A DNA stretch of 64,000 nucleotides from the NCBI GenBank assembly GCA_025093985.1, contig JACAAK010000013.1, positions 682,001-746,000 of the forward strand, given 5' to 3'. Of this stretch, positions 27,201 to 56,800 are shown piece after piece (within the stretch, counting starts at the first letter, position 1; each line of letters begins with the position of its first letter). The notes beneath the pieces are model-generated. The model was not told the origin of the DNA. It made no database searches and was given only the letters and a program-made list of their open reading frames with translations. The DNA is from Calvatia gigantea (lineage: Eukaryota > Basidiomycota > Agaricomycetes > Agaricales > Lycoperdaceae). The position numbers and the translations under genes are program-made.

Positions 27201-27377
27201 TGTTATGACCTTAGTCTGAGTAAACCTCAGGTTGCAACTTAGGCTAAGACTTGAGGGCAAGTAAGAGGAATATACCAGGTGGTTAAGCATACTGAATACA
27301 GGAGGTTGTATGTATACTTAAATACAAAGAGAGCATCCAGTTGAATGGATGGAGAACTACATGAAACATTCAATAAG
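27201..27377 (-). repeat. A2 3' LTR, left fragment
   Basis: First 177 bp of the A LTR, ending CAATAAG at the junction with D. Its last 86 bp (27292-27377) are repeated on the far side of D at 43548-43633. Confidence 0.88.
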
Positions 27378-28685
27378 ATAAAGAGGCAGAAATAGCACTA
27401 CTAAATGTGATATGGATGTATGGCTTAGCTTAAGCTGATGGAATAGATTTTTAAAGATTTCTGCACAAGGCAAGTTTGTGGGGAGGCAATCTGACAATAT
27501 GAGGGACAATTCCACAAAATAATGCAAAACAACAATGCATAGAGAACACCAGAATAACTAGCTGTCTTCACTAAGAAGAGTAAAGCCAAGTTACACTATA
27601 AAAAGCACAACTCGCATCCCTTATCTAAGAAGTTAACAAGACACAGAACCTCAGGTACTCCCTAAGATTCACCCTTATCAAGTCAACAACCAGAAGTGCA
27701 CTGTCCTACACTTGTGATACTCCAAGTACCAGGGTGTAGTGATGCAATACACTCTTAATCTAAGCTCACTTCGCAAGTAAGCCGAGGTCTTCTTCTTAGA
27801 TTACAAAGGTCTCAACCTTAGCTCAAGTCACTTAATCCAGTTAATCTCAAAAGAACTTATTACTTTGCTTTGCTCAGGCACAATAGATTGCTTTTCACTG
27901 TGCTCTGAAGGCTGAGCAATAGCTAGTAGGTTCCTTGCTATGTCTGACACCTCAGAGGGGGTTTATATATTATTTGGGTGCTTGTTATGACAAGATAATG
28001 ATTACACGACTAGGAACATATTATCAAGCAAAGTACAAACCAGTAGATTAGATCACACACCAAGAGAGCTGCAACCTGTTAGATTAGTGAAATATTGGAA
28101 ATACAGGAGGATTCTGGGTATCTGTTTGTTCTGGGCTGGGTTTTAGCCCATCCTCTGGGTCTGCATTCTTCTCTAAATATGTAGAACATCTAAGATTTTG
28201 GATGTTGCATGAACTGTTCTCCTACATGTCCCTATGGATTGTATATGAACACATTCATACACATCATTAGTGCTGAGTGATGTTCATTAATCTAACAACA
28301 GTGGCATTTCCATGTGAACACACCAATCATCCTTTTAGATTAAGCATGTTGGACTTATTTCCTGAGTCAAGGCTCATTGGAGGGGTCCCATAGCTCTGTA
28401 TAGATGCATTGGAATGGTTTTACCACCTGGTCCAGCCAGAATCACGACTGGTTATATAGTACACTATTAAAATTGCTTTTTGTTAAGCTCAGTGGTCATC
28501 CCATAGCTCCCGCTATCCATCATCAATGGCCATAGTGTTCTACAGTGATCGAGTACTCTTTTATTATACTGTTGGGCTCTTAGATTAGGTCATACTACTA
28601 CAGGAAGGTTTGATGCAATCATTAGATTAGGCTTGTATGCCTTAAATTAGTGATTTTCATGCATGAAAATGGCTTTGCTGTTATA
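27378..28685 (-). repeat. Element D 3' LTR (1308 bp)
   Basis: Aligns end to end with 42239-43546. Minus-strand start is TATAACAGC, where the 5' LTR has TGTAATGGC, so the terminal TG is mutated. The other end, CTTTAT, does not finish in CA, so a few terminal bases may be missing. Differences from the 5' LTR are mostly C/T and G/A at former CpGs. Confidence 0.87.
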
Positions 28686-28698
28686 TCTCCCCCTCACT
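28686..28698 (-). other. Element D polypurine tract
   Basis: Minus strand AGTGAGGGGGAGA ends at the 3' LTR edge. A similar tract sits at 31721-31733, between the two antisense genes. Confidence 0.72.
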
Positions 28699-29137
28699 AT
28701 AGATGATTGCCCTCAGTCCTCCATTAAGTCTGACATGATCACTAAGTAGCAACTTTGCTTTCTCTCTTTTTTGCTGATCTTTAAGCGTGCACAGAAGCAC
28801 CTGGTTCAATCAACTAGAAGTATTTTTATGCTTCATGGTAAAGTCTTTGAGAGATGATCTGATTTCACCCTCTTTGACGTCGAGTTCCCCTTTCAGTAAC
28901 CCTGTCACCATTAGCAGCTAATACTTCTCACAGCTAATATCCACTGTTGCTATCTTAAGCCTTTCATAGCTGCCTGTTATTCTAAACATTTTTATATGTT
29001 TTGTGTGTATCTTAGATACATTCCTTTTGCTAAGTATGATACCAGGTTGTAGAACCTCGCTCATCCATTTTGGACCATGAGATTAAGAACCTAGCCTTAT
29101 CATGTTGCGTTAGCTTAACCTTTCCTCAATTCTGTAG
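28699..29137 (+). promoter_or_regulatory. Upstream region of antisense gene 1
   Basis: About 440 bp between the tract and the TATA box with no open frame. It is pyrimidine-rich in places (TTTCTCTCTTTTTTGC near 28760). It would carry the promoter of gene 1 if that gene is transcribed on its own. Confidence 0.4.
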
Positions 29138-29145
29138 TATATAAG
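29138..29145 (+). promoter_or_regulatory. TATA box of antisense gene 1
   Basis: TATATAAG, 47 bp before the ATG at 29192, with a pyrimidine-rich stretch between them. Box and spacing fit a fungal RNA polymerase II promoter, given a short leader. Confidence 0.55.
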
Positions 29146-29191
29146 AACGGCACATGTTTTTTCTTCCTAATTTCATGCATCTATCATTGTT

Positions 29192-31409
29192 ATGGCTGCC
29201 CCACATGATTCCAACACAAATCTGGTCACTCCGGCCTCCATTCACAACAGCCTGGTGGCTCAGGGTTTCAAAGGAGAGGAGCTAGAGAACTGAGTTGTGG
29301 AAATGGTGGACATGCTGTGTCCAGGGTGGACAGGTATGCCCCTTTTTTCTTCTCTGGTACTCAGTGTACTAATCTTTGCTTCTAATCTCAGGTGGACTGC
29401 TCCAAGCACCCATGCTGCTTATTTGGCCAGCACCCACATTTACCACACTGCCTCCTCCCATTGGTCTCCCACAGAACGAAATGTTTACATTCCCTCCCAT
29501 TCAGACCTCCTTCAATGCTTCTGGGCCTTTGATTAGGCCACAGCCCGTTATCTACCATCTAGGAACCAGTGCCCATATTCCTCCAGGTATGCAGACCATG
29601 ATGCCACTGCCAGCAACTATGGGTACTTTTCTTTTTTACTCTATTTTGTCATTCCTGAACTGACTTGTGATCTTAGCTGCAAGTCAGTCATCACGGTCTT
29701 CCTCTAAGCCAAAGAAGTCCTGGAAATGTGCCAGAAAAGCACATCATTCATCTACTTTTAACTGTATTTCTTGTTTGACCATTTATCTAACAGAACCTCG
29801 ATGTTCCGACCCCAACTTCAGCAGGTCCATCTGTCTCTACTAACCCTCCAATGTCTTCCATGGCAATAGGAGGACCTATTGCAACCAGCCAGCCTGATTG
29901 CATAGCTGCTCCCAAGACTCCCAGTGCCCTTGTCAACATAAATCATTTGATTTATGACTGTTTTTATCTTAATCTAATTTCATTCATCTAGCCTGTGGCT
30001 GCTCATCTTGCCTTGTTGGCTGCTCAGGCAAAGGCATAGGCTCAGACTCATCAACGAGCTACAAACACATCACCAGATGATGCCCCACCCAAGAAACATG
30101 CTTGCAAGGCTGTCACATCAGCCAGGAAGACTCTCACTGTTCCTGCCCTCTCTATATCGTTGTTTGTCTCTATGACAAATTCTTCCAAACTGAAACCTCA
30201 CTGGGTGATCCTGAAGATCCCCGTCAGGGAAGAGACAGTAACCGCCCTCCTCGAGGCTCTTCTGGAGACAATCTGTCCCACTTTTTCACCAGTGGGAGAG
30301 ATTGATGTCAAGGAGGTTGAAAAACCCCCCAGGAATGTTCTGGAGCCTGCAAAGCCCTGAACCTAGTCATCTCCGTAAGTCTCTTTTCATCAAATCTTGT
30401 CTTTCTTTGCTAATCTAACAGGTGCTGCTTGTCATATGGATGAGGACCTTGTTGAGGAGTGCAGCTTGAAGGCAGCTGCCTCCTTCTTCTCTGATGTTGG
30501 GCCAGCATTCTCACTGCTCAACGCTGAGCCTTATGTGAGTGTTTTCCATAGAAGGTACACCTTAATCTAATACTTTTCTAGGGCAGCACTGGACAGCTTC
30601 AGTGCTTAAACTGCATGAAGCTGTTTTTGCCTGACTGCACTCCCAGTGGCAAGGACTAGGATGGCAAAACTTGCAAGTGCAAGCAATGCCTTGCCCAGAA
30701 TGCTGCCCACTGTTCAGATACCAAGCCAGCACCCCTCCTTCAGTACTAGGCTGAAGGTGCTTGGCTTCACTCCCTGACCAGCAACCACTGTAAGTTGTTT
30801 TTATTCTTTTATCTAAGTTGTTATGTTGGCTGACCAACACTATTTCTTGTTAATCTAGACCTTGCCAACTGATTCTGAAACCTGACGGTGGCCCACGCTC
30901 AAGTTTTTTGGCTCGAAACTTTCCTGGACATGGCTTATATGAACTACCACACCCTTGTCTACTTGTTTGCAAAGAACATCTAGATTGCATGTCAACTTCA
31001 TGGTTGTGAGTCCTCCTTCTGGGTTGAGTCTGGGCTCTGCAAGACCCAAAGCAACGCCTCCAACCTGTTTACCTTCATTGACAGATTCCTCGATGAAGTC
31101 TATGCTTTGGAAGATCCTGATTTTGCTCGCTGGTCTTACTTCACTCATGGCCGTTTTCTCAATGTGCTGTCTGGTCTGTACAGGGAGGCACCCAGGACAT
31201 GGCCTGGCATGTCTTCTACCCCATCCTTCACTTTGAAACACACTGACTTTACCAATCTCTCCATCCCTTGTGTTAAGAAGACCCACTCCACCAAATCTAA
31301 GGGGAAACAGTGAGCAGCATCACCCCCTCCTTCCTCAAGCCTGCCTATCAGTGAGGAGGAGTTCAATTCTGGGGATGACGCAGCAGCATCTTCTGACTAC
31401 AAATCCTGA
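29192..31409 (+). pseudogene. Antisense gene 1 of element D: multi-exon, Pro-rich with Cys cluster, function unknown
   Basis: Starts MAAPHDSNTNLVTPASIHNS at 29192, after a TATA box. Exons are joined by short GT-AG introns, e.g. 29334-29391 and 29623-29676, others near 29764-29823, 30376-30420, 30534-30581 and 30790-30858. Most have TAATCT or TAATCTAAY near the acceptor. Parts in order: Pro-rich (LPPPIGLPQNEMFTFPP), basic (KPKKSWKCARK, KKHACKAVTSARK), LKPHWVILKIPVREETVTAL, then a Cys cluster (LQCLNCMKLFLPD, KTCKCKQCLAQN), then VFWLETFLDMAYMNYHTLVY, LFTFIDRFLDEVYALEDPDF and YFTHGRFLNVLSGLYREAPR, ending in an acidic tail. Four or more TGA/TAG stops replace likely Arg/Gln codons. I do not recognise the family. 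The Cys cluster may bind zinc. Confidence 0.62.
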
Positions 31410-32063
31410 GGTTCATGCAGCGTTTTTTCTTATTATATCTTGGCAGTCTTTGGAGTAGATACATTACTGTAGTAGTGTATTCTGCTCCCCCAACATCTTG
31501 CTAGATATCTAGGTACATCATACTTAGATACATGTTTTTACTTTAGTCTTTCTGCATCTTTGGGTGGTACCCTGGATGCTCAATTCAATCTGCTTGTGCA
31601 CATTTTTGTGTGAATCTATAAATCTTAAATTTTTCAGAAGTAAGTGTGTGGATTCACCAAAATTTTGTACTATTGCATGTATATTGCACATCTAGTCAAA
31701 TCTAAGTCTCTGCAGTACACACTCCCCCCCACTAAAACAGACAGGTGCCCTCACCCTTATGCTATCCATTTCAGAGACATGTGAGAGGTGTTGCTATGGT
31801 ATGACCTATTTCAAATCTCAGTGACTTTTTGCATTTCAAAGCATCGCAGCTCATCATTCAAAATTTGCCAAAAGCAGCTGAATTTTTCATTCTTATCTTA
31901 CACAGGTTTTTCTGCTAATCTCAAGGTCTTTTTCACTGGCAGTTTGAGCCGTATTTCTAGATAGACCCTTTTTTGATGTAGCTACATATAATCTAAATGC
32001 AGGGAACTTGTACCTCAGTTCTCCTTGCTGTATATCTTGCTAGGATCTCTTGTCATTCTCTTC
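31410..32063 (+). other. Spacer between antisense genes, with a second polypurine-like tract
   Basis: No open frame. CACTCCCCCCCACTA at 31719-31733 followed by GTGCCCTCA resembles the tract and its neighbourhood at 28686-28720. Promoter elements of gene 2 would lie here; ACATATAATC near 31984 is a weak TATA candidate. Confidence 0.5.
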
Positions 32064-33402
32064 ATGTCTGCTGATACTGTTAACACTCGTATTGAGCTAG
32101 ATGATGCAATTAGTACCTTTTAGCACCGATTGCAACATTTTCAGCATCAGAAGAGCACACAGGCTTCTGTATTTAATGCTTTGAATGATGCTACTGCCCC
32201 AGCCATAAGTCTTAGATTAGCACCTTCAACCATTGTTGTCAATAGCTAATATGTCTATCCTTTCAGTCTCAGTTCCTTCATCAACTTTCAGGCGATGCTG
32301 CTGGTTTAGAAGATGAGAAGAATGTCAATCTCATTTTCCGTGCTTGCAAGATCTTTGAGACCTGGCAGAACGAACATGACAGGGCTTTCAAGATGCCAGA
32401 AGTTTACAAGAAACTTCAAGACTTCTGTGCTCAGTACAAACGCTCCAAAGCTAAAGCCAAGTCAAGTTCATCTGGACCAGCAAGCCCTGCTGCAACTCCC
32501 ACATCTACAATGACTACTACTGGCTCAGGTCCTCTAACCAAAAAAGTGCACAAAATCTTTAATCTAAGTTGATCCATTGTTATCTCAATAATGTCCACTA
32601 GTGTCGTCGCAGTAAGCAAGTCATTTCGCCCAAGACCATTGATAACTCTGACAAAGAGGAGACATCAAGGACTGTAAGTTATTCTGATATCTCCTATTCC
32701 CTTAATCTAACGTTGTTCTTGCCATAGGAGACCATGCAAGTTGATGATTCTGGCCCTCCAGGAACAGTCATATCTCCTGATGATGACCGAACCAGTAGCA
32801 CCATGGTGCTTGAGCCTCAAATCACCACTACTGCTGTTAACCAGGTAAATCATTCTTTCTCCCATCGCCACAGCACATCGTTCTCAGCTGTGGTTTGTCT
32901 TGCTTTCTTCATTAATCTTGGTTAGCTATTGCTAAGACTCATTAATCTACACTTGCAGAAGACAGCTGTGGCTGATACTTGTGCTGAGACAGTATATATA
33001 CCTTATGCCTTTGTGCCTGGCTTAGATATCAGCAGTAGTGCTTATAAGTGAGCCATACAGCTTACTACTGGTGTGAAGTATGTTCATTTTTTGCCTTCCA
33101 CTCCGGAACAAGGTCAGCCTTTCAGAACACCTTAGTATATCCTAGCTGATAACCAAATTCCATAAGTTGTGGCTCTAACAAAGGTCATTGAGCTGTTGAC
33201 TCTCAAGAATCATGAGCTCTATGCTTACTATGTCACTCGTTGCGAGAGTGCCATGCTTTAGACTGGTCTCCTTGATACCAGCTCTGAGCTAATCTCAGCA
33301 GCCCAGGCATTGGAAGCTGCTGCTTGCCACTATGAAGTCTTAGCTAAACAGTAGGAATATCTCTTTGTTCAGTTAGAGAAGTTATTAGGCCATTCTGCTT
33401 AG
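32064..33402 (+). pseudogene. Antisense gene 2 of element D: multi-exon, coiled-coil-like, function unknown
   Basis: Starts MSADTVNTRIELDDAIST at 32064. After an intron ending TTTCAG at about 32268 it reads FRACKIFETWQNEHDRAFKM and VYKKLQDFCAQYKRSKAKAK, a charged helical region, then a Ser/Thr/Pro-rich linker (SSSGPASPAATPTSTMTTT), a short basic exon CRRSKQVISPKTI, an acidic exon MQVDDSGPPG and a long last exon with VVALTKVIELLTLKNHELYA and ISAAQALEAAACHYEVLAKQ, again helical. Introns near 32545-32600, 32676-32728 and 32846-32958 are GT-AG with TAATCTAA or TAATCTA before the acceptor. Four stops (TAG/TGA) sit at likely Gln/Arg codons. The composition suggests a scaffold or regulatory protein, but this is inference only. 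Confidence 0.58.
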
Positions 33403-33518
33403 ATTACCTCTAGCATTCTTCAATCACCCATTTTTACTTAGATAGTTTTTACCCTCAGTTTGTATGCGTTCACACAAACAGAGTTTTCTATCTTATGATG
33501 AAATTCAGTGTGATCATG

Positions 33519-35140
33519 TCAGTTCTTGATGTCTGAGTCTGTTAGCTTTGCCTCTGACTCATCTTCCATGATTAATCTATCCAAACCATCCTTAGATAGA
33601 TCAATTAAACATTTGATTTTCTTGTCCAGCATTAGCTTAGACTGTGCTAAGTAAGGTATTACTCTAAAAGCTGCGACCTTATTTTGCCATATGGATCCAT
33701 CCAGTTCTGCTAAGATATACATGCCACCCTTAAGTCGCTGAATCACTACCATAGGTCCTAGATACCTTGGCTTTATTTTGCGATCCACTGACATTTGTAT
33801 GGCTGAATTCTTAACTAAGACTAACAATCCCAGCTTTAGGTCAAAGTCTTTTATCTTATATTTCATTTCTTCTTCTAGTTTTAATGCCCTATTTAACTTT
33901 TCGTTAGATAGATGTTTTTGCATTTCATCTATGTGGTCTACATGTTTAGCTAAGGCCAGTGCTCGTAGACTGATAAGTTCTTCTGTAGATAGGAAGCATT
34001 CTGGGTATTTAACTAACCAGGTTGCTTCTGTTATATGTAATGGTAACGTTGGGTGTGCTCCCGTTGCCATAAAGTAAGGCGAACATCCCATACCCTTTCT
34101 TATTGTTATCCTATCAGCCCACATTACATGGTGGAGATACCAGTACCATTTTCTGACATTGCCATTTGTGGCCTTATACAGCATTTGTCTAACATCCTAG
34201 TGGGGTCTTTCTATTGTCCCGTTAGCTTGTGAGTTGTAGGGAGAGATAGTGACTCCTTTAATCCCATACTTCTCAGCTAACCAGCCAACCACTTTCTTAA
34301 ATGGTGAGCCATTATCTGTGACAATCTTCACAAGACTTCCCCATCTGCAGATGATATCTTCGAAAAGCCATTGTCTGATAGACTTGGCGTTCTCTTTTCT
34401 TAAGGCTCTGGCCTCCATCCAGGATGAAAGTCCATACCATCTGTGGACAATATAACTACAACTATTTGATGCTGAAGTCATATGTATTGTATCTGCATGT
34501 AAGATTTGGAAAAGCGACGGAGTATATGTCACTACCAGGTGGCAATTCTAATGCCATCTTCTGTCTAATCTGACACAGGTGACATGTCTTTACATACTAT
34601 GCTATGTCGCCCTCCATTTCTGGCCACCAGAACCTCTGAGCTATGAGCTTTGTGGTTGCGCATACTTCTCTGTGCCCTAGCTTATCATGACAAGTTTTCA
34701 TAATTCTCATCTGATGTTCTTTAGCTAAGATGAGTGCAGGGTTTCCACCACTCAGCAGACTTCCTGTATAAGTGACTGTCGTTATCTAGCCAAAAGTGTG
34801 AGGCTGCCCTTACAAATTTAGCTTGATCAGTATCTATTTTACTGATGTCAAATCCCTTCAGGTTGTTAGCTAACCTATTCCCAGATTCAACTGAGTCGTT
34901 TATCTTGTATTTTAGCTGTCTCCAGCCTCCAGTCTTCATTATAGGGTGCTAGTTCTTTGTCAGTCAGGTTCTTTATCTAAGTTTTCTGACTCTAAGGTAG
35001 TGACCCTATCTAAGAAAGCACGGAGCAACTCAGGATATTTTTCCTGGTTAGCTATCATGTGTCTGGTCTTTATGTCTTGTTGGGTAGATTCCTTAATGTT
35101 ATCTAAGTCATTTTGGAAGTCTACCAACAGGCTCATTACT
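33519..35140 (-). pseudogene. Element D integrase
   Basis: Zinc domain near 34,560-34,660 (REVCATTKLIAQRFWWPEME and CHLCQIRQK). The catalytic core has LHADTIHM (first Asp) near 34,490, KIVTDNGSPFKK (second Asp) near 34,300 and SPYNSQANGTIERPH (Glu) near 34,210. Then comes a GPY-type C-terminal region, [19 protein letters not shown], near 33,730. No chromodomain is seen, unlike A, B and C. The C-terminal part 33519-34184 is 221 codons open; a TGA after IERPH separates it from the core. All three catalytic residues are intact. It ends about 115 bp from the 3' end of antisense gene 2, so the two transcripts converge. Confidence 0.85.
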
Positions 35141-35157
35141 TGCTGCATGTAGCCTGT

Positions 35158-36757
35158 TCAATTATCTATTTCTTCATAGAATTCCTCTAAATCTAATGGG
35201 TCTTCATCTTCTGGGTTAGCCTTAGATAGAATAAAGTCATCCCCATCGTTCTCAGATCCATTATCAAAGGCACGTTCTACTGGGTCCCCTGGGTACCAAG
35301 GTCTTCTTGAGAGTCCATCAGGCCCAAAGGCCTTACCTTTCTTATGTATAAGTTTGAAATGAAAGTTTGTCTGTATATAATCTACCCAGTGATTTATCAT
35401 TGCATTAGGCAGTCTTCTGGGGTTGTTCAACATTCCAAACAAATACTTAGCATTTGTCTCAATAATTAGATTTCGACAACCAGTCAATAGATAAGTCTCT
35501 TCTTCTAAGACCATTCTTAGACTACACAATTCTCATTTAGGTTGTGAATATCTTTGTTGTCATTTGTCCATAAGCAAAGAGTTAAACTTCACATAATGGA
35601 TTATTTTAGGATCTTCCTCATCTCTTTGATAGAGATAATATCCTACTGCTCTCCAGGACGAAGTCAACCGATAGGACTATGGGCTGAGTGCTTGGAAACT
35701 TCAGATTTCTAGTATGAAAGCAGTTTTTAATTGCTTCCTTTAGATTATCCTGGCCTGTCTGCTGTTCAGGTCCCCATTCGAATGCTACATGCATCTTGCA
35801 CATATTATATAATGGTGCAGCGATTATCACAAAGTTTGGAATGTGATTCCTACATCTAATGGCTGTCCCCAAGAAAGATCTGGTTTCTGAAGCATCCTTA
35901 CAAGTGCCCCATCATAATATAACACCAATGGTGTCTGCTGTTGGTTTTCTTCCTTTATATGAGCAGTCAAATCCTACAATAGTTGTATGATCTGCACATA
36001 TTATTGTCTTTGGCCCAGAAAAGGTGCCTCCCACATATTTCATTCATTGTAATATGTGGTTCACTGTGTTCATATGTTCCCATATGAATCGCCTAATGCC
36101 TGGGTTCCCTTCTATAACCTCATAATCACTGTTAGATAACTCATAATGCATAGGTGGTCCCTGTATAGGCACGTCATCAATATAGGGGACTGTATGTTCC
36201 AGAATTTCATCTGACAATATATATGTAACATCATCATGAAAGATAGGTACTGAGTTAGTCCACCCCATAGGCAATGTTACTAATCTAAGGGCTCCGAATG
36301 GTGTTTGGAAAGTTGTTAGATCTCTAGATGACTCCGCCAACTGCCTTTCGTCATACTCTATATATAAATCTAATATGCCACTACAAGCCCTTCCTGAGAA
36401 GTGCATAGCAAGTTCTTCTGTTGCGGGCGGTAGACCCGAGTGTGCAATTGTTACTCTGTTTAGAGGCTCTAAGCTATGTACTAGTCTGAGACTCTTTCTG
36501 TCTTTCTTAAGTATGCAAAACCATTTAGACCTATAAGACAAATTCGAGGGTTCATATACCCCCGCATCTATTTTTCTTTTGATAATTCTACATACTTCGT
36601 CATAGATTGCTGGGGGAATCCTGAAATGTCTTTCTACCCATGGTATATGGGCAATAGTGGGGATCTCTATCAGAGGGAAAAACTCCTCCTTAAATTTGCC
36701 CCTTTCAGTATCATCCCAAGCAAATGCTTTATTGTGTTCTGCAATTAACCAATGCAT
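35158..36757 (-). pseudogene. Element D reverse transcriptase and RNase H
   Basis: RT 36044-36757 is open for 237 codons: WVERHFRIPPAIYDEVCRII, KWFCILKKDRKSLRLVHSLE, LDLYIEYDERQLAESSRDLT, FGALRLVTLPMGWTNSVPIF and the catalytic VPYIDDVPIQGP. YIDD replaces the usual YMDD or YVDD but keeps both Asp. RNase H follows (35158-35872) with IVLSVDFVLES and LRMVLEEETYLLTGCRNLII, plus stops between 35530 and 35620. The layout is Ty3/Gypsy, clearly distinct from A-C. Confidence 0.86.
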
Positions 36758-36763
36758 TAGCTT

Positions 36764-37288
36764 TCACTCCTTGTAAGTCAAGAAGTCCCCATTATGAGCT
36801 GTGTCCATCTTGTTTTTCCATTCTTTGGTATACCTGCCTTTAGATTTGAAGGTTGGCGGGTTAACCAGCAGGATTGGCAGCTCAGCCAAGGGATCTCCAA
36901 TTATCTCTTGTTTTATTCTGTATTTGTCTGGTAGTTCCCCCAGTACAGGTCTCACTTTCAATGTGACTGGTTTATATTTCTTAGCTAAACAAAGAATATG
37001 TTCCTCCTCTATAGGTGGTCCATAGATTTCATCTAATGCTGTCACTCTTTGAATAACTCTGCTGGGACTTACAATCTGAGATAAGAACATAGTAAGTAGT
37101 TCTTTATTGCAAGACTGCTGCATCACTAAACTCTTCTGTAAGTATATTAGATTAACTTCATTGGCAGTCATAGATTTTACATCAACTACCAACATTTCAC
37201 TAATATATGGTTTATTCTTGTTGTCTAAGCTAATTATAAGAGCAACCTCTCCTTTGATGCCTTCTTCGAAGTCATCAAGGCTACTCAA
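36764..37288 (-). pseudogene. Element D protease-RT linker
   Basis: 174-codon open stretch, MSSLDDFEEGIKGEVALIIS to FLTYKE, between protease and RT in the pol frame order. No catalytic motif is seen. It is charged and probably helical. In this class of element such linkers precede the RT fingers. It is a polyprotein segment, not a separate gene. Confidence 0.7.
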
Positions 37289-37407
37289 AAATTTTGCTCT
37301 TTAATTTGCAGTAATTGGCCTTTAGCATAAGTAGGCAACATCGCTCTATTCTTTGTATTGGGATTGGTAATGACTATCATTTGCACTCCTTCAGCAGAGT
37401 TCACCAC

Positions 37408-38364
37408 TCAACTTTCTGTCAGGATGTCAAAAGGTCTGCCTAGTAATATTGAGTATGGTGGACTGTCGACTACATGGACTTGTAGATAGACTGTCATGTC
37501 TCCAAAGCTAAATGGCACATTCTTAGCTAGACTATAAGTCTGGCTTATCTGGCCATTCACACTCTGCATGTTGATAGTTGTGTCTGGATCCCATGTGATT
37601 CTACAATCTATCGCTGTATTTCTGGACATGGATACAATTTGTGAACCACTATCCAACAAAGCCTCTTCTTCTCTAAGATTGTTCACTAATGTTGGAATGA
37701 CTCTTAGCAAGGCCATATCTTTGGCCATTATAGTCCCATTATTATCTAATGAGAATATATGCTTGCCTCTATCTTCCCAAGGTACTGCTTCCAAGTACTG
37801 TAGGATAGGATCAGTAATTCTCCAAGTTAGATAGGGACGTCCTTCAATGTCCAAAACTTTCTCTGCGACTTTCTCTGGTTTCACGAGCGTTGAGACCTGT
37901 ACTAGGTTAATGATAGGCTCCTCACTTTCCAAATCAGATTCATTATCTTCAATATGCAATGCATTGTTAGATTTAATTGCTACACGTCTTTTAGCAATTT
38001 GGTCTTTGTACTTCTCTCAGAGTTTGGGGGAAATAGCCAACAATTCTTTGTGAGATAGAGAAATGTCTCCTTTGAGAATTCTCTCCAATATTTTATCTAA
38101 TTCAACCCCATCCTCAATCTCTGTCTTGTGTTTATATAATGGTTGCTTTTGTGCGCGCAAGTACTTTGCAGGCACAGGTGGGACTTCTACAACTGGCCTA
38201 AGAGATCTAACATTTTTATAGGGAAAATCATTGACCTGCTTAGATTTCATTGGTTCTGTATTTTTCTTGTCTTTGGTACTTAGATTAGGATCATCTTCTC
38301 TATTGCTCTCTGATTTCATCTGTTTCCTGGTGGGGATCTTCCATCCAGGGGACGGTTTCTTCAT
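37408..38364 (-). pseudogene. Element D protease and its upstream pol segment
   Basis: 38017-38364 (MKKPSPGWKIPTRKQMKSES onward, basic, ending ELLAISPKL) leads through one TGA into 37408-37959. The latter reads EEEALLDSGSQIVSMSRNTA (catalytic DSG) and PYSILLGRPFDIL at the end, a retropepsin pattern. Upstream IEGRPYLTWRITDPILQYLE precedes the catalytic turn. A partial second copy of this region (down to GTI) lies in the tandem duplicate at 40145. Confidence 0.82.
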
Positions 38365-38372
38365 TGAACTGC

Positions 38373-40090
38373 TTAAAAACCTGACTGATTCTTTTTAGAG
38401 CTGTCCTTCTTTTGAGCCCAAGCCAAAATCTTTGCAAGCTGGCTGGCCAGGTTGTCAGAATCGTCTTCTTCATTGGACACTGGTTCAGGATCTTTAGCTT
38501 TGCATGATTTCACAGGCTTAGTGCTAGATAGCAATGTTTTAATTGTATTAAGATGGCCTTTTAGATTTTCTAGTTCTAAGCCATGTCTATCTAACACTTG
38601 CCTACTCTCTTCAATTATACTATCTCTAGTATCTTTGAGTTGGTTTGTGTAGATGGAAAGCTCAGGTGCATGACCATAAGATTGGTAGGGACCTAGATCA
38701 GGTACTTCCTCTTCTTGAGGCAATTTGGGTTGCATGCCTAGGCATACCAATAGCGTGCTTGGTAAATACTTCACTATGATAGCCTTAATAGACATCCCTT
38801 CAATCCTAGGTATGGGTGAGCTGTCTGCAAATCTAAGTTGATTTCCGTTGACTTTAATTTTTCCATCTTTCACATCCTGGTCTTTTTCTGGACATGCAAG
38901 CCAATGATGCTTTGGATTGAAACAATAGTAGCATCCTCTGTCTATCCTGGCCACAGCCTCATTATTCTGTCTCAGCTGTCCCTGACCATAGTTTACAGGG
39001 TTTGCAGGACACATAAATTTTGTCTGCATTGTAGCTTTCATGGAGTCCATAAAGCTCTGCATATTTTTCTGATTAACAGCCAGAGTATCTTTTAGATTAG
39101 TGATTTCTTCGCGTAAGTCCAACTGCTGCTCAGTGGGCTCATGTTTTACTTGCGGCAGTATAGCTCAAGACATAGTAGCCAGATTGTTATCATATTTTAG
39201 CACTTTAGCTATGGTCTTTCTACTGACCAGCTCCACTGCTTTAGCAACGACTTCAGTCCAATTGTATGGATCTTTGCCTCAGGCCATGCCTCCTGTGTGA
39301 GCACAACCATTGATACTTAATCTAGTATTCAGGTTCTCTTGGAAGTGTTTGTCTAGACTTCCAACAAACATTTCTACCAGTTCTTGGTTTGTTACGAGTG
39401 GCAGATTTGTTAGACATTTTTCTGCTTGTAAAGAGAACTTCCTCTTGAAAGCTAAGAGGCACTCTTCGTCAAATATACTAATGTGTTTGTATTCTCATCC
39501 TAATGCTCATAATCTAGCAACTGAACCTTGTTCTTCTGCTACGAGTTCTGGATACTCCTGCTTCAAATGATTTTTAAAACCATTCCAGTCTGGAGTTATA
39601 TATTCCAGGAAACTTGACCATTCATCTTGTATGCTAGGCTCTACATAGCTAATGGCCCATTTTACTTTGTCTTCAATGTCTGTGATACTAGAGACATCAA
39701 ATAAGTGTTCTAGACGCCATAGGAAGTCTCAGAGTGTAGCTCCTTGACTATCCCATACTGGGGCTCCTGTAGCCATGGGGTTTGGCATAGCAGGGCTAGG
39801 CATAGCATTTGGCTGATTTGAGTTCATTTGAGAGGTAGTTTGGGTCCATGGTTGTGTCTGTACTGGAAAGTTTCGTGCTAGATTAGGTGAAGGGTCCACA
39901 GACACAGCAGGATTTACTGTTCGTGAAGTGCGTTTGTGAGCTGAACTTTTGCCAAAAGTATCTGAGCATTGAGAATAGCAGGCATTTCTAAGCAACTGCT
40001 CTGGATTATCTAGCTTCAGTAACAGCTCTGTTCTTCTAGAATTTTGAGTCTCTCAACCTTTGGGTTTTGTTTTGTTCTGTTCTGGTACAG
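38373..40090 (-). pseudogene. Element D gag with zinc knuckle
   Basis: Reads LLLKLDNPEQLLRNACYSQ near 40,000, a Pro/Asn-rich stretch (MNSNQPNAMPSPAMPNPMA), then a gag domain with KVKWAISYVEPSIQDEWSSF and DWNGFKNHLKQEYPELV near 39,560-39,680. It ends with the open stretch 38373-39122, where the knuckle CYYCFNPKHHWLAC (CX2CX4HX4C) is near 38,890-38,940. Four TGA codons (e.g. GATL-stop-DFL, ARL-stop-ALG) interrupt it. Start not fixed. The pol frame follows with a shift near 38370. Confidence 0.8.
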
Positions 40091-40144
40091 GATGTGAAGT
40101 AGCAATCTGCTTTTTATATACTCCAGGTGGATGCCCGAAGCTCG

Positions 40145-42166
40145 TATAGTCCCATTATTATCTAATGAGAATATATGCTTGCCTCTATCTTCCCAAGGTA
40201 CTGCTTCCAAGTACTGTAGGATAGGATCAGTAATTCTCCAAGTTAGATAGGGACGTCCTTCAATGTCCAAACTTTCTCTGCGACTTTCTCTGGTTTCACG
40301 AGCGTTGAGACCTGTACTAGGTTAATGATAGGCTCCTCACTTTCCAAATCAGATTCATTATCTTCAATATGCAATGCATTGTTAGATTTAATTGCTACAC
40401 GTCTTTTAGCAATTTGGTCTTTGTACTTCTCTCAGAGTTTGGGGGAAATAGCCAACAATTCTTTGTGAGATAGAGAAATGTCTCCTTTGAGAATTCTCTC
40501 CAATATTTTATCTAATTCAACCCCATCCTCAATCTCTGTCTTGTGTTTATATAATGGTTGCTTTTGTGCGCGCAAGTACTTTGCAGGCACAGGTGGGACT
40601 TCTACAACTGGCCTAAGAGATCTAACATTTTTATAGGGAAAATCATTGACCTGCTTAGATTTCATTGGTTCTGTATTTTTCTTGTCTTTGGTACTTAGAT
40701 TAGGATCATCTTCTCTATTGCTCTCTGATTTCATCTGTTTTCCTGGTGGGGATCTTCCATCCAGGGGACGGTTTCTTCATTGAACTGCTTAAAAACCTGA
40801 CTGATTCTTTTTAGAGCTGTCCTTCTTTTGAGCCCAAGCCAAAATCTTTGCAAGCTGGCTGGCCAGGTTGTCAGAATCGTCTTCTTCATTGGACACTGGT
40901 TCAGGATCTTTAGCTTTGCATGATTTCACAGGCTTAGTGCTAGATAGCAATGTTTTAATTGTATTAAGATGGCCTTTTAGATTTTCTAGTTCTAAGCCAT
41001 GTCTATCTAACACTTGCCTACTCTCTTCAATTATACTATCTCTAGTATCTTTGAGTTGGTTTGTGTAGATGGAAAGCTCAGGTGCATGACCATAAGATTG
41101 GTAGGGACCTAGATCAGGTACTTCCTCTTCTTGAGGCAATTTGGGTTGCATGCCTAGGCATACCAATAGCGTGCTTGGTAAATACTTCACTATGATAGCC
41201 TTAATAGACATCCCTTCAATCCTAGGTATGGGTGAGCTGTCTGCAAATCTAAGTTGATTTCCGTTGACTTTAATTTTTCCATCTTTCACATCCTGGTCTT
41301 TTTCTGGACATGCAAGCCAATGATGCTTTGGATTGAAACAATAGTAGCATCCTCTGTCTATCCTGGCCACAGCCTCATTATTCTGTCTCAGCTGTCCCTG
41401 ACCATAGTTTACAGGGTTTGCAGGACACATAAATTTTGTCTGCATTGTAGCTTTCATGGAGTCCATAAAGCTCTGCATATTTTTCTGATTAACAGCCAGA
41501 GTATCTTTTAGATTAGTGATTTCTTCGCGTAAGTCCAACTGCTGCTCAGTGGGCTCATGTTTTACTTGCGGCAGTATAGCTCAAGACATAGTAGCCAGAT
41601 TGTTATCATATTTTAGCACTTTAGCTATGGTCTTTCTACTGACCAGCTCCACTGCTTTAGCAACGACTTCAGTCCAATTGTATGGATCTTTGCCTCAGGC
41701 CATGCCTCCTGTGTGAGCACAACCATTGATACTTAATCTAGTATTCAGGTTCTCTTGGAAGTGTTTGTCTAGACTTCCATTGGGGCTCCTGTAGCCATGG
41801 GGTTTGGCATAGCAGGGCTAGGCATAGCATTTGGCTGATTTGAGTTCATTTGAGAGGTAGTTTGGGTCCATGGTTGTGTCTGTACTGGAAAGTTTCGTGC
41901 TAGATTAGGTGAAGGGTCCACAGACACAGCAGGATTTACTGTTCGTGAAGTGCGTTTGTGAGCTGAACTTTTGCCAAAAGTATCTGAGCATTGAGAATAG
42001 CAGGCATTTCTAAGCAACTGCTCTGGATTATCTAGCTTCAGTAACAGCTCTGTTCTTCTAGAATTTTGAGTCTCTCAACCTTTGGGTTTTGTTTTGTTCT
42101 GTTCTGGTACAGGATGTGAAGTAGCAATCTGCTTTTTATATACTCCAGGTGGATACCCGAAGCTCG
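40145..42166 (-). repeat. Tandem duplicate of the element D gag-protease boundary region
   Basis: Nearly identical to 37729-40144, with one internal deletion equivalent to 39364-39758 and a few one-base homopolymer changes (TGTTTTCC for TGTTTCC near 40737). Units join head to tail at 40144/40145. It contains a second knuckle-bearing open stretch (40789-41538) identical in translation to 38373-39122. It is either a recent duplication or an assembly artefact. Confidence 0.85.
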
Positions 42167-42238
42167 TTTTGAGAATGGTAAAAGGGTGTGGAAATAAAGT
42201 GGCTCTCACACTGAAACTCCCCTCATGGTGGGCTCCAG
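42167..42238 (-). other. Element D leader with candidate primer-binding site
   Basis: Minus strand TGGAGCCCACCATGAGG (plus 42221-42237) starts about one base from the LTR edge and begins with TGG as tRNA primer sites do. The tRNA was not assigned. Confidence 0.5.
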
Positions 42239-43546
42239 ATAAAGAGGCAGAAATAGCACTACTAAATGTGATATGGATGTATGGCTTAGCTTAAGCTGAT
42301 GGAATAGATTTTTAAAGATTTCTGCACAAGGCAAGTTTGTGGGGAGGCAATCTGACAATATGAGGGACAATTCCACAAAATAATGTGAAACAACAATGCG
42401 TAGAGAACACCAGAATAACTAGCTGTCTTCACTAAGAAGAGTAAAGCCAAGTTACACTATAAAAAGCACAACTCGCATCCCTTATCTAAGAAGTTAACAA
42501 GACACAGAACCTCAGGTACTCCCTAAGATTCACCCTTATCAAGTCAATGACCAGAAGTGCACTGTCCTACACTTGTGATACTCCAAGTACCAGGATGTAG
42601 TGATGCAATACACTCTTAATCTAAGCTCACTTCGCAAGTAAGCCGAGGTCTTCTTCTTAGATTACAAAGGTCTCAACCTTAGCTCAAGTCACTTAATCCA
42701 GTTAATCTCAAAAGAACTTATTACTTTGCTTTGCTCAGGCACAATAGATTGCTTTTCACTGTGCTCTGAAGGCTGAGCAATAGCTAGTAGGTTCCTTGCT
42801 ATGTCTGACACCTCAGAGGGGGTTTATATATTATTTGGATGCTTGTTATGACAAGATAATGATTACACGACTAAGAACATATTATCAAGCAAGGTATAAA
42901 CCAGTAGATTAGATCGTGTGCCAAGAGAGCTGCAACTTGTTAGATTAGTGAAACATTGGAAATACAGGAGGATTCTGGGTATCTGTTTGTTCTGGGCTGG
43001 GTTTTAGCTTGTTCTCTGGGTCTGCATTCTTCTCTAAATATGTAGAACATCTAAGATTTTGGACATCACATGAACTGTTCTCCTATGTGTCCCTATGGAT
43101 TGTATACGAATGTGTTCATACACGTCATTAGTGCTGAGTGATGTTCATTAATCTAACAACAGTGGCATTTCCATGTGAACATGCCAATCATCCTTTTAAA
43201 TTAAGCACATCAGACTTATTTCCCGAGTCAAGGCTCATTGGAGGGGTCCTGTAGCTCTGTATAGATGCATTGGAATGGTTTTACTGCCTGGTCCAGCCAG
43301 AATCACGACTGGTCATATGGTACACTGTTAGAATTGCTTTTTGTTAAGCTTAGTGGTCATCCCATAGCTGCCGCTATCCATTATCAATGGCCATAGTGTT
43401 CTACAGTGATCAAGTACTCTTTTATTATACTGTTGGGCTCTTAGATTAGGTCATACTACTATAGGAAGGTTTGATGCAATCATTAGATTAGGCTTGTATA
43501 CCTTAGATTAGTGATTTTCATGTGTGAAAACAGCTTTGCCATTACA
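42239..43546 (-). repeat. Element D 5' LTR (1308 bp)
   Basis: Partner of 27378-28685, same length. Its minus-strand start TGTAATGGC is intact. The flank after 43546 is A LTR sequence. Confidence 0.88.
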
Positions 43547-43547: not shown

Positions 43548-43761
43548 CTGAATACAGGAGGTTGTATATATGCTTAAATACAAAGAGAGCATCCAGTTGA
43601 ATGGATGGAGAACTACATGAAATGTCCAATAAGAATGGCATTGTAGTTAGTTGGAGTCATACTTGGAGATCGCTCAGTAGGAAATAACTGAAACAGGTAT
43701 GCAAGCTGATAGGAATGTAGATGAATATAGGTCATGATGTGATCAGTGGAAATCCACAACA
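43548..43761 (-). repeat. A2 3' LTR, right fragment
   Basis: Resumes the A LTR at CTGAATACAGGAGG and ends CCACAACA. It overlaps the left fragment by 86 bp with several transitions between the two. Confidence 0.88.
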
Positions 43762-44579: not shown

Positions 44580-46855
44580 CTTAGTTTTCTTGTCTGAGCT
44601 GTTTGTTCGATGTCTTTTAGTGTTTTCTGCCCCCCTTTTTATGGGTATCCTCCAGATGCCTTTTTAGGTAGTCTTGTATGGCCTCCCTTGTGTTTCCTAG
44701 GTTGGATTCCACTGTCCACATATCTTCTTCATTGCTGTACCCCTTCCAGTGGACCAAGAATTGATAGCCCCTTCCTTGTTTCCTTCGTCTGTAGATTTCG
44801 TCTACTTTGTATTCCTCTTCATTGTTGATAATCACTGGATTGGGTGCTGATGGCTGCTTCTGGCTCTGGAATTTGGCCTTATATACTTGTGTCAGGAGCT
44901 GTTCATTGAACACATCATGGATGGCCCATCCTTCTGGTAATGCTAGCTGATATGCTGCTTCTCCTAGTTTTTCCTTAATAAGGAAAGGTCCATACTGTTT
45001 TTGGCCTAGTTTCTTTGATGTTTGATTGGTATGGATGTTAGTGTTCTCCAGCCACACTGTATCTCCTATCTGATATGCGTTGGTATGGGTTTTTCTACAG
45101 TCATGCTATTGTTTTATCTTTTCTTGATATGTCTGTAGTGCTGATGAGGCATTATCTCGGGCAGTCTGTAGCTGTTCCAGGAACTCTGTGGCAACAGGAT
45201 TGTTCGTGGCTGGTTTGCTCCTGCCTTTCCATGGGTTCCTTCCATAGTTTAGGAAAAATGGCATTTCCTGTGTTCCCCTATGCTACTTGTCATTGTATTG
45301 GAACTCTGTGATGGGGAGCCATTCTGTCCAGTTGTCCTGGTCATAACTGCAATATAGGCAGATATATGTTTCCACTTCTCTGTTGATATGTTCAGTTTGC
45401 CCATCCATTTGTGGATAGTATGCTGTTGACAGATTTTGTTCTATGCCAAGCCCTTTGAATAGCTCCTTGGTAAATTCTGATGTGAATTGAGGTCCTCAGT
45501 TGCTGAGCACTTTCCTTGGTAATCCATGTAGCTTCCATATTTCATCTCAATATATCTTTGTGACATCTTTGGATGAAACATCTGTGGTTGTCACTATGAG
45601 TCATATCATTTTTGTGAAACAGTCTACAATGACCAGTATTACATCTTTTCCTTTGGACTTTGGTAATGGTCTGATCATATCAATGCTAATTTCTTCCCAA
45701 GGTCCATTTGGTATTGGGAGGGGATGTAGTGGCAATTTAAGCAGTGTTGTTCTTGCTTTGTTCCTTTGACAGGCTTGGCACCCTTGAATGTATCTTTTTA
45801 TGTCTTTCCGTATTGATGGCCACCAGTAATCATGACTGATTAGTTCCATCATCCTGTGCTATCCTGGGTGCCCTGCATCTGGGATGTCATGATACTGTAT
45901 CAGGATTTCTTCTCGTAGTTTTTGGTCGGGTGGGACGTATATGCTATTCTGCTTGTAGATAACTCCATTGTCTTCGGTGAGTTGGGATCCTTGTTTCTTT
46001 AGTTTGGTTAGAACTGTTGTTTCTTATTAGGTTTGATTTCAAATCTGCTCCAGGAAGTCTGGCTTGATGAACAGTTCTGCTTGTAGAAGTACCATGCTGT
46101 CTGTGCTTTTGGTTTGCAGCCAGCTTTCTCAGATTATGGTAACCAATTTATCCTCCTGTCCTTCTGGCATTTGGTGGATTTGGGATAGCAGGTCAGCTTT
46201 CATGTTCATTTTCCCAGGTACACATCGTAATGTGAAGTCATAATCTTGTAATCACAAGTACCATCATACTTGCCATCCATTCAGTTTCTGTGGTTTCTAG
46301 TAGTACTTCAGATTTTTGTAATTGGTCCAGATTTCAAATCTTTCTTCGGCATCTAGGAGGTAGTGTCTCCACTCTTTCAGGGCATGGACGAATAGCTAGT
46401 AGTTCTTTGTTGTATATTTTGTAGTTTTGTTCTGCTGGTGATAGCATTCACAATGTGAAGGCAATGGGGTGCCATTTGTCTTCTTGTTGCTGTGATAGCA
46501 TGCCCCCTAGTGCGTAGTCTGATGCATCGACTTCTACCCTGAATTGGCCTTGTCTTTGTGGTAGTGTCAGGACCAGTTCTTCAGTGATACACTTCTTGAG
46601 TTGGTCAAAGGCGGCTTGGTGTTCTTTGGTCCATTCCCATGTGGTTGTTCCCTTGAGTTTGTTTAATGGTCCCACAATTTTGCTGAAATTTTTGATGAAG
46701 TGTTGGTAGTAATTAGCAAAACCCAGGAATCTTTCCACTCCTTTGGTGCTCTTTGGTTTGGGCCATTCTCGTACTGATTTTACTTTTTCTTCTTCCATTT
46801 CAATTCATCCATGTCTTACTTTAACTCCTAGCATTGGGATTTCTTCAGCACAAAG
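44580..46855 (-). pseudogene. A2 integrase, chromodomain and RNase H, block i
   Basis: Same order as A1: chromodomain EYKVDEIYRRRKQGRGYQFL and HWKGYSNEEDMW near 44,700-44,830, core with SIDMIRPL near 45,680 and a TGA in the SN-stop-GPQF motif near 45496, zinc motif GCQACQRNKA near 45,780, then RNase H VEVDASDYALGGMLSQQQ near 46,520. RT homology stops near 46,850. Confidence 0.87.
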
Positions 46856-47130
46856 TGCTGGTTCATTTGAATGGTGTATTGAGCAGCCCTGGAATCAACT
46901 GTTCACTCTTAGTTGGTCCTTGGTTCACCTGGGAAGCAGAAGTCGTCCATGTAGATTTCATGTATCTGGGCCATTTGAAGCAGGTCGTGAGTGCTTGCCA
47001 TTCTGGAGAAGAGTTCCCAGTGATTCTAGGCCAAAATGATGAATGCAGTCAATAGACCTTCATTGGTGGGAAGGCTGTTTCCTTAGTTTTCTTGATCTGA
47101 ATGTTGTATCAGATGCTTTGTAGTTTTTGA
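46856..47130 (-). repeat. Error-rich junction between the two A2 blocks
   Basis: The left half is a deletion-riddled copy of 48,935-49,200 (RT); the right half is a deletion-riddled copy of 44,580-44,700 (pol end). The quality drop exactly at the join of two near-identical blocks suggests an assembly bridge. Confidence 0.75.
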
Positions 47131-48925
47131 AGTCCTTTTGGGTTCCTCAGATCCTTTTTAGGTGTCTTGTATGGCCTCCCTTGTATTACTAGGTTGGATT
47201 CCACTGTCCACTATTTCTTCATGTGTACCCCTTCCATGGACCAAGAATTGATAGCCCCTTTCTTTTCCTTCGTCTGTAGATTTCGTCTACTTTGTATTCC
47301 TCTTCATTGTTGATAATCACTGGATTGGGTTGATGCTGCTTTGGCTCTGGAATTTGGCCTTATATACTTGTGTCAGGAGCTGTTCATTGAACACATCATG
47401 GATGGCCCATCCTTCTGGTAATGCTAGCTGATATGCTGCTTCTCCTAGTTTTTCCTTAATAAGGAAAGGTCCATACTGTTTTTGGCCTAGTTTCTTTGAT
47501 GTTTGATTGGTATGGATGTTAGTGTTCTCCAGCCACACTGTATCTCCTATCTGATATGCGTTGGTATGGTTTTTCTACAGTCATGCTATTGTTTTATCTT
47601 TTCTTGATATGTCTGTAGTGCTGATGAGGCATTATCTCGGGCAGTCTGTAGCTGTTCCAGGAACTCTGTGGCAACAGGATTGTTCGTGGCTGGTTTGCTC
47701 CTGCCTTTCCATGGGTTCCTTCCATAGTTTAGGAAAAATGGCATTTCCTGTGTTCCCCTATGCTACTTGTCATTGTATTGGAACTCTGTGATGGGGAGCC
47801 ATTCTGTCCAGTTGTCCTGGTCATAACTGCAATATAGGCAGATATATGTTTCCACTTCTCTGTTGATATGTTCAGTTTGCCCATCCATTTGTGGATAGTA
47901 TGCTGTTGACAGATTTTGTTCTATGCCAAGCCCTTTGAATAGCTCCTTGGTAAATTCTGATGTGAATTGAGGTCCTCAGTTGCTGAGTTCTCGTAGTTTT
48001 TGGTCGGGTGGGACGTATATGCTATTCTGCTTGTAGATAACTCCATTGTCTTCGGTGAGTTGGGATCCTTGTTTCTTTAGTTTGGTTAGAACTGTTGTTT
48101 CTTATTAGGTTTGATTTCAAATCTGCTCCAGGAAGTCTGGCTTGATGAACAGTTCTGCTTGTAGAAGTACCATGCTGTCTGTGCTTTTGGTTTGCAGCCA
48201 GCTTTCTCAGATTATGGTAACCAATTTATCCTCCTGTCCTTCTGGCATTTGGTGGATTTGGGATAGCAGGTCAGCTTTCATGTTCATTTTCCCAGGTACA
48301 CATCGTAATGTGAAGTCATAATCTTGTAATCACAAGTACCATCATACTTGCCATCCATTCAGTTTCTGTGGTTTCCAGTAGTACTTCAGATTTTTGCGAT
48401 CGGTCCAGATTTCAAATCTTTCTTCGGCATCTAGGAGGTAGTGTCTCCACTCTTTCAGGGCATGGACGATAGCTAGTAGTTCTTTGTTGTATATTTTGTA
48501 GTTTTGTTCTGCTGGTGATAGCATTCACAATGTGAAGGCAATGGGGTGCCATTTGTCTTCTTGTTGCTGTGATAGCATGCCCCCTAGTGCGTAGTCTGAT
48601 GCATCGACTTCTACCCTGAATTGGCCTTGTCTTTGTGGTAGTGTCAGGACCAGTTCTTCAGTGATACACTTCTTGAGTTGGTCAAAGGCGGCTTGGTGTT
48701 CTTTGGTCCATTCCCATGTGGTTGTTCCCTTGAGTTTGTTTAATGGTCCCACAATTTTGCTGAAATTTTTGATGAAGTGTTGGTAGTAATTAGCAAAACC
48801 CAGGAATCTTTCCACTCCTTTGGTGCTCTTTGGTTTGGGCCATTCTCGTACTGATTTTACTTTTTCTTCTTCCATTTCAATTCATCCATGTCTTACTTTA
48901 ACTCCTAGCATTGGGATTTCTTCTG
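47131..48925 (-). repeat. A2 integrase and RNase H, block ii (duplicate of block i)
   Basis: Near-identical to 44,680-46,850 but missing the part equivalent to about 45,500-45,890 (integrase core and zinc motif); the join is at about 47986. RNase H 48525-48875 translates identically to 46448-46798. This block is colinear with the RT that follows, so it is probably the original one. Confidence 0.87.
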
Positions 48926-53689: not shown

Positions 53690-54100
53690 CCAGATTATCA
53701 GTTTGGCCAAACATTGTTGATAACATGATTATACATTAACATGGGCTAATAAATTAACTGAGTAGGTTAACATGGGCTAATAATGAAACCAAGTAGATAG
53801 GCTGGTAACAGATAATATACTAATAGTAAGATAACAACTGATAATGACATTACCTTGGCTAACATGATTATAGAAGTTAACATTGACTGATAATTTGGTT
53901 GAGTAGATTGGCATAAACTGATAGCAGATAATGATGTACTAATAACAACTGATAATGAGATTAACTTAGCTATTATAAAAGTTAACATTGACTAATAATG
54001 AAAGTTAAGTAGATTGACATAGAACAATAGCAGATAATAATTGATACAGGATAATGATATGTAACTTAGCTAACAATGTCTGACATTAAATGAGATTAAA
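53690..54100. repeat. Degenerate AT-rich satellite, block 1
   Basis: Units built on TTAACATTGACTGATAAT and AAGTAGATTGACATA recur about every 105-110 bp (53789, 53898, 54004). Related blocks lie at 55735 and 58530. Short reverse-strand frames within it are by-products. Confidence 0.75.
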
Positions 54101-55596: not shown

Positions 55597-56015
55597 CCTT
55601 CCTCCCACTCTCTTATGCTGAGCTAGCCAAATAGCACAGCATTTATCAGAACTGACTAAGCAAAAAACTTCCTACTGTCCATTCTTCCACTCTCTAATGC
55701 CTGAAGCTGGCCAGATTATTAGTTTGGCCAAAAATCATTGATAAGATAATTATGCATTAACATGGACTGATAATAAAACTGAGTAGATTGGCATAGACTG
55801 ATAGTAGATAAGAATGGACTGATAGTAAGATAATAACTGATAATGAGGTTAACTTGGCTAACACTAGCTGATAAGGTGATTATACAAGTTAACATTGACT
55901 GATAATGAAGTTGAGTAGATTGATATGGACTGATAGTAAGGTAACAACTGATAATGAGATTAACTTGGCAAATACAGGCTGATAAGATGATTATAGAAGT
56001 TAACATTAACTATTG
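55597..56015. repeat. Satellite flank and AT-rich satellite, block 2
   Basis: 55597-55735 repeats 53,600-53,720 (CCACTCTCTTATGCTGAGC and following). Satellite units then run to 56015. Confidence 0.72.

Positions 56016-56348: not shown

Positions 56349-56800
<452 letters not shown>

Follow-up and report, generated by a model that had tools for sequence, protein, structure and literature searches.

A 64,000-nucleotide stretch of the Calvatia gigantea genome (contig JACAAK010000013.1, positions 682,001 to 746,000; hereafter the window) contains a copy of a Ty3/Gypsy long terminal repeat (LTR) retrotransposon, element D, in which the interval between the polypurine tract and the end of integrase holds two plus-strand genes, A and B, that run antisense to gag-pol. 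Substitution counts among copies demonstrate purifying selection, which is clear for B and, taken over the whole gene, for A. D is in addition densely sown with a short word, TAATCTAA/TTAGATTA. We propose tentatively, at somewhat short of an even chance, that A and B encode nuclear proteins, one or both of which act on the element's own DNA by way of this word, likely against CpG silencing.

Element D and its antisense genes

Three complete copies (c11, c12 and c45) found in the 46-Mb genome (77 contigs) span 14.1-14.3 kb. Their LTRs measure 1307-1309 bp with pair identities of 98.9-99.6%, and inspection of the flanks revealed 4-bp target duplications (TCGG, CCGC and GCGG). The LTR pairs differ by only 13, 5 and 14 bases, mostly CpG-type transitions (10, 4 and 9, respectively), and these copies therefore look young. 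The minus strand encodes gag with a CX2CX4HX4C knuckle and protease (both recognized by eye), followed by reverse transcriptase (RT), RNase H and integrase. The order of RT before integrase, together with the LTRs, short target duplications and polypurine tract of c11, c12 and c45, is that of a Ty3/Gypsy element. In copy c12 Pfam identifies Integrase_H2C2 (1.8e-18), while rve (7.9e-6) and RVT_1 (2.1e-4) fall below the Pfam cut-off.

In the earlier note two sets of plus-strand exons, at 29192-31409 and 32064-33402, were placed in the interval that separates the polypurine tract from the integrase end, and both are confirmed here. Gene A comprises 8 exons and 7 introns and encodes 610 amino acids, or 608 under an alternative model of intron 3, while gene B comprises 6 exons and 5 introns and encodes 332 amino acids. 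The features of the interval are as follows (exons from the spliced reading of copies).

28686..28699, minus strand: polypurine tract (GAGGGGGAGA on the minus strand), from the sequence; abuts the 3' LTR in c11, c12 and c45
29138..29145, plus strand: candidate TATA box of gene A, TATATAAG, 46 nt upstream of the first ATG
29192..29333, plus strand: gene A exon 1
29392..29622, plus strand: gene A exon 2
29677..29738, plus strand: gene A exon 3 (GC-AG model; end at 29763 in the GT-AG model)
29794..29937, plus strand: gene A exon 4 (GC-AG model; start at 29825 in the GT-AG model)
29992..30374, plus strand: gene A exon 5
30422..30534, plus strand: gene A exon 6
30582..30789, plus strand: gene A exon 7; in open copies it encodes the cysteine cluster CX2CX7CX13CX2CX7C
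30859..31409, plus strand: gene A exon 8, a conserved helical part followed by a basic/acidic tail
32064..32204, plus strand: gene B exon 1
32267..32545, plus strand: gene B exon 2
32602..32673, plus strand: gene B exon 3
32728..32844, plus strand: gene B exon 4
32959..33112, plus strand: gene B exon 5
33167..33402, plus strand: gene B exon 6

The region is carried by other copies of D, as the check suggested with the original prediction now finds: interval 28686-33518 has 36 genomic matches, nine of them nearly full length and the window copy among the nine. The LTR query gives at least 41 genomic matches (40 of 231 first-look candidates scored). A D-like RT copy at C56:2032605 (90%) has no match to the interval. 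Interpretation of the exon sets as genes holds in copy L002, where spliced A (608 or 610 codons, by intron 3 model) and B (332 codons) are free of stops, and in several others, but fails in the window copy, where both are broken. Gene A is open in L002, L003 and L005 (3 of the 12 copies covering it whole) and gene B in L002-L006 (5 of the 14 covering at least 0.99 of it); the remaining copies, among them that of the window, show stops, donor losses and some indels. Splice sites are largely kept across copies: of 182 intron-by-copy cells, 160 retain the donor and 180 the acceptor, and each of the 22 donors lost has changed from GT to AT. The short length of the introns suits a fungal genome. 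An origin of A and B as chance open reading frames is rejected by the stop-free spliced frames of L002 and the retention of splice sites across copies.

The introns had been described as GT-AG throughout, which stands with the exception of gene A intron 3, for which a GC-AG reading (29739-29793) is preferred. Single-nucleotide deletions lie beside the GT donor, one common to L008, L009 and L010 and another in L012; these become intronic in the GC-AG model, whereas they are exonic under GT-AG. The same four copies carry further indels under either model, and retention of both the GC donor and the AG acceptor is complete (13 of 13 copies). Upstream of gene A the TATA-like TATATAAG that had been reported ahead of the first ATG is present, and is kept in 15 of the 15 copies spanning the site.

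Introns in the packaged strand of a retroelement are lost on retrotransposition, whereas antisense introns are not removed. The introns would thus stay in D since it is the opposite strand that is packaged as RNA, and their persistence fits the antisense orientation of A and B. Since retrotransposition strips the packaged strand in this way, D with its twelve conserved introns makes a clear example of genes maintained in antisense to a transposing RNA.

Selection on A and B and their relatives

Selection was assessed from transversions only, to avoid CpG decay, counting each distinct change once relative to L002 across 19 further copies that differ in coverage and with no tree of the copies. 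Constraint on the exons, which the earlier note had asked for across copies, is found in both genes. Gene A shows 45 changes per 1428 nonsynonymous sites against 33 per 398 synonymous ones (ratio 0.38, Fisher p 3e-5), and gene B 6 per 818 and 11 per 181, respectively (ratio 0.12, Fisher p 2e-5). Transversions elsewhere amount to 33 per 733 sites in introns and 66 per 1279 in spacers, and the nonsynonymous rate lies below that of introns and spacers together for A (p 0.012) and for B (p 2e-9). The ratio for A is flattering, since its synonymous rate (83 per kb) lies above the intron rate (45 per kb). Changes at codon position 3 exceed those at positions 1 and 2 together (41 of 78 in A, 10 of 17 in B), and the six oldest copies give ratios of 0.31 for A and 0.07 for B. 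Over its final 55 codons integrase yields 0.11, from five events, similar to B. Because neutral post-insertion changes are counted in, true constraint should be stronger than measured, while the p-values are rough, the kinship of copies being ignored.

Relatives of the two proteins are scarce. Neither A nor B matches its own genome outside D places (E 0.01; overlap with the interval matches compared by eye), and searches with the full-length spliced proteins returned no relative (for A, among the 7996 candidates sharing most words that were scored). Exon 8 of A searched alone has two metagenomic relatives, P0001 (52% identity) and P0002 (42%). P0001 extends into the preceding exon through a stretch without counterpart in A, situated exactly at intron 7 (SDY-CK...SLID-LADRF), which we read from the alignment as the same intron 7 retained; the common intron place suggests that gene A and this intron are old. 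Of the cysteine cluster of A, the final three residues are present in P0001, and P0002 ends short of it. Scans of viral contigs and prokaryote genomes yielded no relative of A. An AlphaFold2 model of P0002 and P0001 consists of four helices with a mean predicted local distance difference test score of 60, too weak for a fold search. Basic tracts recognized by eye in A and B are KPKKSRKR, PPKKRAR and KKRRRSK, the last of these in B.

The dispersed word and possible roles of A and B

Copy c12 contains 29 sites of the word TAATCTAA/TTAGATTA in 14,145 bp, where 0.7 are expected from dinucleotides. Each LTR of c12 holds 8 sites in 1307 bp (0.08 expected), the A/B introns 6 in 732 bp (0.05 expected), the spacers 1 (0.07 expected), the A/B exons 1 in 2826 bp (0.02 expected) and gag-pol 5 (0.44 expected). 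The sites are dispersed and occur on both strands. Within gag-pol the looser ATCTAA/TTAGAT is 5-fold enriched (30 versus 5.8 expected) and occupies every stop-avoiding frame, which argues against a protein effect as the source of this enrichment. In the window the word follows the element closely:

27376..43539, both strands: word TAATCTAA/TTAGATTA, with 29 of 29 exact window sites lying between 27.2 and 43.7 kb

No site occurs in the 47.5 kb of window outside D or in 6 kb around a related RT family, and one occurs in 12.3 kb of D flanks. Genome-wide the word has 2734 sites and its reversed form 1494; clusters of at least three contain 73 of the first 100 sites listed (one contig), and several listed clusters coincide by eye with D copies and LTRs. 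The word also resists decay. Ten non-coding sites in 15 decayed copies are intact in 100 of 105 cases versus 1009 of 1402 for matched AT-rich CpG-free words (p 4e-9), and permuting at the level of sites, against 506 AT-rich words, yields p 1.5e-4. By location, conservation is 63/66 in introns (controls 289/408) and 12/12 at the single spacer site (controls 679/949); across ten LTRs the eight word sites survive in 73 of 80 instances, a count with no control set. The word had been taken for a branch motif preceding the acceptors. This is not its main character, and a role as branch signal only is rejected, given its occurrence on both strands, in the LTRs (16 of 29 sites) and in pol.

These observations can be assembled into a mechanism. 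A and B would be transcribed from integrated D DNA and spliced to yield two nuclear proteins, their location suggested by the basic tracts: A would bear a zinc-cluster-like cysteine motif together with such tracts, and B would be smaller, with the KKRRRSK tract. A and/or B would recognize the word, which is concentrated in the LTRs and introns of D and scarce in the other sequence examined, and would thus act on D copies only, most likely so that the LTR promoter and the antisense genes stay active in the face of CpG-based silencing. We infer expression, nuclear location and word recognition by A and/or B from these features. The concentration of D decay at CpG in this host was counted in favor of the silencing idea. 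The earlier note's suggestion that the products may control silencing or transcription of the element gains some indirect support from the spread of the word across D. If the anti-silencing reading is true, element-encoded sequence-specific counter-silencing arose more than once, and only D's own copies would be freed from CpG silencing. In either event a candidate target word, seemingly private to D, accompanies the antisense genes, so that the question of function becomes a simple binding and reporter question.

VANDALs, which offer the closest model for such a mechanism, are DNA transposons. In Arabidopsis VANC21 acts on a 9-base motif that is dense in the non-coding parts of VANDAL21 and rare elsewhere, and its localization accompanies loss of CG methylation (PMC5735166, PMC10398659; these and the papers below are cited from excerpts). 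D resembles VANC/VANDAL in combining an extra protein with a short motif that is private to the family and crowded into non-coding parts, among them the introns of the accessory genes; binding and demethylation, shown in Arabidopsis, are predictions for D. That A or B is a self-made anti-silencing or self-activating factor of the VANC kind, independently evolved in a fungal retrotransposon with its word seeded in LTRs, introns and pol, is a reading that we hold doubtful.

Antisense accessory genes themselves are of a known kind. The plant Ty3-Gypsy elements Retand and Grande carry antisense open reading frames between pol and the 3' LTR, and Grande gene23 has its own upstream promoter and a nuclear product (PMC7264820). 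D matches them in the place and orientation of the genes, in the long interval between pol and 3' LTR, and in proteins of unknown role kept across copies. It differs in its fungal host, in having two genes with 7 and 5 introns, in a private, dispersed 8-mer instead of tandem arrays, and in the proteins, which are TRP28 proteins in the plant elements, whereas Pfam finds neither TRP28 (PF04195) nor any other domain in A or B. The earlier note knew of no spliced pair of this type in a fungal Gypsy element. Boty-like Gypsy elements of Botrytis and Sclerotinia do have an antisense gene, brtn (cited in PMC7264820 and PMC8365987), which lies like A and B between pol and the 3' LTR; the comparison, by cited description and not by sequence, indicates one antisense gene versus two in D. 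Only the intron-rich pair and the private word therefore look new. Searches of the open-access literature, read as titles and opening lines of abstracts, showed no paper on a fungal element with paired antisense genes rich in introns, most subscription papers lying outside that scope, and the excerpts of a study of bdelloid rotifer elements with extra open reading frames contained no antisense or intron case like D (PMC5408684). The function of antisense accessory genes in LTR elements is still open (PMC7264820, PMC11963269).

Several results weigh against an activity of A and B on D through the word. Constraint on A is uneven, being strong in exon 1 (2/115 nonsynonymous, 8/27 synonymous) and absent from exon 2 (14/173 nonsynonymous, 5/58 synonymous). 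In middle-aged copies the nonsynonymous rate of A (6.5 per kb, pooled) approximates that of introns (7.0) and spacers (6.8), as expected if most changes post-date insertion. Searches of Pfam, NCBIfam and PDB with A and B gave nothing, or weak matches far below cut-off: in Pfam, A has no match up to E 1 and B solely a weak RFX match (0.066). The Zn2Cys6 pattern of Zn(2)-C6 fungal transcription factors is CX2CX6CX5-12CX2CX6-8C. The Pfam domain has no match in A, and the CX2CX7CX13CX2CX7C spacing, determined by eye, breaks this pattern. Word conservation in the LTR stretch equals that of controls (25/27 versus 41/45), so that the extra conservation is clear solely in introns, where it is explicable by a branch-point role. 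VANC motifs form same-strand tandem arrays, whereas one-orientation arrays were not found in D, the sites being dispersed in both orientations. Finally, a host factor rather than A or B could be the reader of the word.

This last point belongs to the rival that fares best, in which A and B would serve RNA export, nuclear entry of the particle or choice of integration site while a host transcription factor reads the TTAGATTA word; we judge it rather doubtful. The basic tracts of both proteins and the lack of a recognized DNA-binding domain are compatible with it, as is Grande GENE23, a nuclear protein of unknown role (PMC7264820). Absence of the word from 47.5 kb of window outside D would be odd for a host site, as would its clustering among the first 100 listed sites, and sites in introns and pol are odd for a promoter element.

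A and B, or their RNA, might instead damp transcription or copy number of D, which we think unlikely. The model is the HBZ and APH proteins of human T-cell leukemia viruses, which damp sense transcription; the layout there is similar, with a spliced antisense gene read from the 3' end and encoding a nuclear regulator (PMC10186651), a property predicted for D. No bZIP or other Pfam domain was found in A or B, and D differs further in having more introns and in an internal TATA-like candidate in place of a 3' LTR promoter. The word evidence would serve a repressor equally well and the sequence says nothing on the sign of regulation, while on general argument selection on a mobile copy favors activation or escape more directly than self-restraint.

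Branch-site use, together with Leu-Asp codon pairs in pol, could also account for the enrichment of the word as a side effect. Introns hold 6 of the 29 exact sites, 4 of them within 20 nt of an acceptor, and in-frame TTA-GAT recurs in pol, so that a partial cause within introns and pol stands. As an overall account it is very unlikely, countered by the 16 LTR sites, found in both orientations, and by two intron sites (B introns 1 and 2) that lie nearer the donor.

It is more improbable still that the antisense RNA itself, by pairing with genomic RNA and feeding RNA silencing, is the functional product and the proteins are incidental; such a role has been proposed for plant elements (PMC7264820), but protein-level constraint would then be unexpected. 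A and B may have originated by capture, as their introns and GC-rich exons (0.60 in gene A versus 0.35 in its introns) resemble host genes, but the idea that they are host genes captured once and carried without function is the least credible of all, neutral capture being rejected by purifying selection, with a ratio well below 1 for B and for A as a whole, and no copy of A or B lying outside D places.

The window copy and related elements

The window copy of D, whose genes A and B were described above as broken, extends beyond the interval as follows.

27376..28685, minus strand: 3' LTR of D, window copy, 95.4% identical to 42237-43539
33519..42080, minus strand: gag-pol of D, comprising gag zinc knuckle, protease, RT, RNase H and integrase; in the window copy it is broken and carries an internal tandem duplication
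42237..43539, minus strand: 5' LTR of D, window copy, from LTR comparison

This copy is dead through CpG-to-TpG changes. Gene A contains 9 in-register stops and a 1-nt insertion and has lost the donor of intron 4, and gene B contains 4 stops and has lost the donor of intron 1. Relative to the column majority, used solely to set the direction of window-copy changes, there are 363 C>T/G>A changes, 279 of them at CpG. Direct repeats of 87 bp (94% identical; 27292-27378 and 43548-43634) flank the copy outside its LTRs, in place of the 4-bp duplications of c11, c12 and c45. Near-perfect internal tandem duplications (99.7-100%), about 2.0-2.5 kb apart, are present at 37729-42080 in D and at 44779-48768 in a chromodomain Gypsy neighbor; in an otherwise heavily mutated D copy they represent either recent duplication or an assembly artefact.

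A candidate primer-binding site, TGGAGCCCACCGCGAG, follows the 5' LTR of D. Its complement has 12 genomic matches, and of the two examined by ARAGORN neither is a tRNA. Places sharing the exact complement include C4:1136895, C6:1063685, C23:320798 and C77:3152717, which lie within about 4 kb of RT matches of related families, and on this basis the primer seems common to the D lineage.

Two related families were compared with D. In one (54% RT identity, C6:1059580) the 6 kb downstream that were covered, part of one copy, contain no site of the word and no obvious antisense gene. The other, a Gypsy family with 49% RT identity, comprises six copies (G000 C45:2950774, C10:40709, C12:387139, C34:742027, C74:1982036 and C74:2137789), and A and B have no match at these six places. 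The equal RT scores of the copies and their long open frames (up to 1950 amino acids) indicate that this family is probably young. A second word dense in the window, ACTGATAAT, belongs to local repeats of another element within 53837-59369, where one strand has it 16 times and the opposite strand once.

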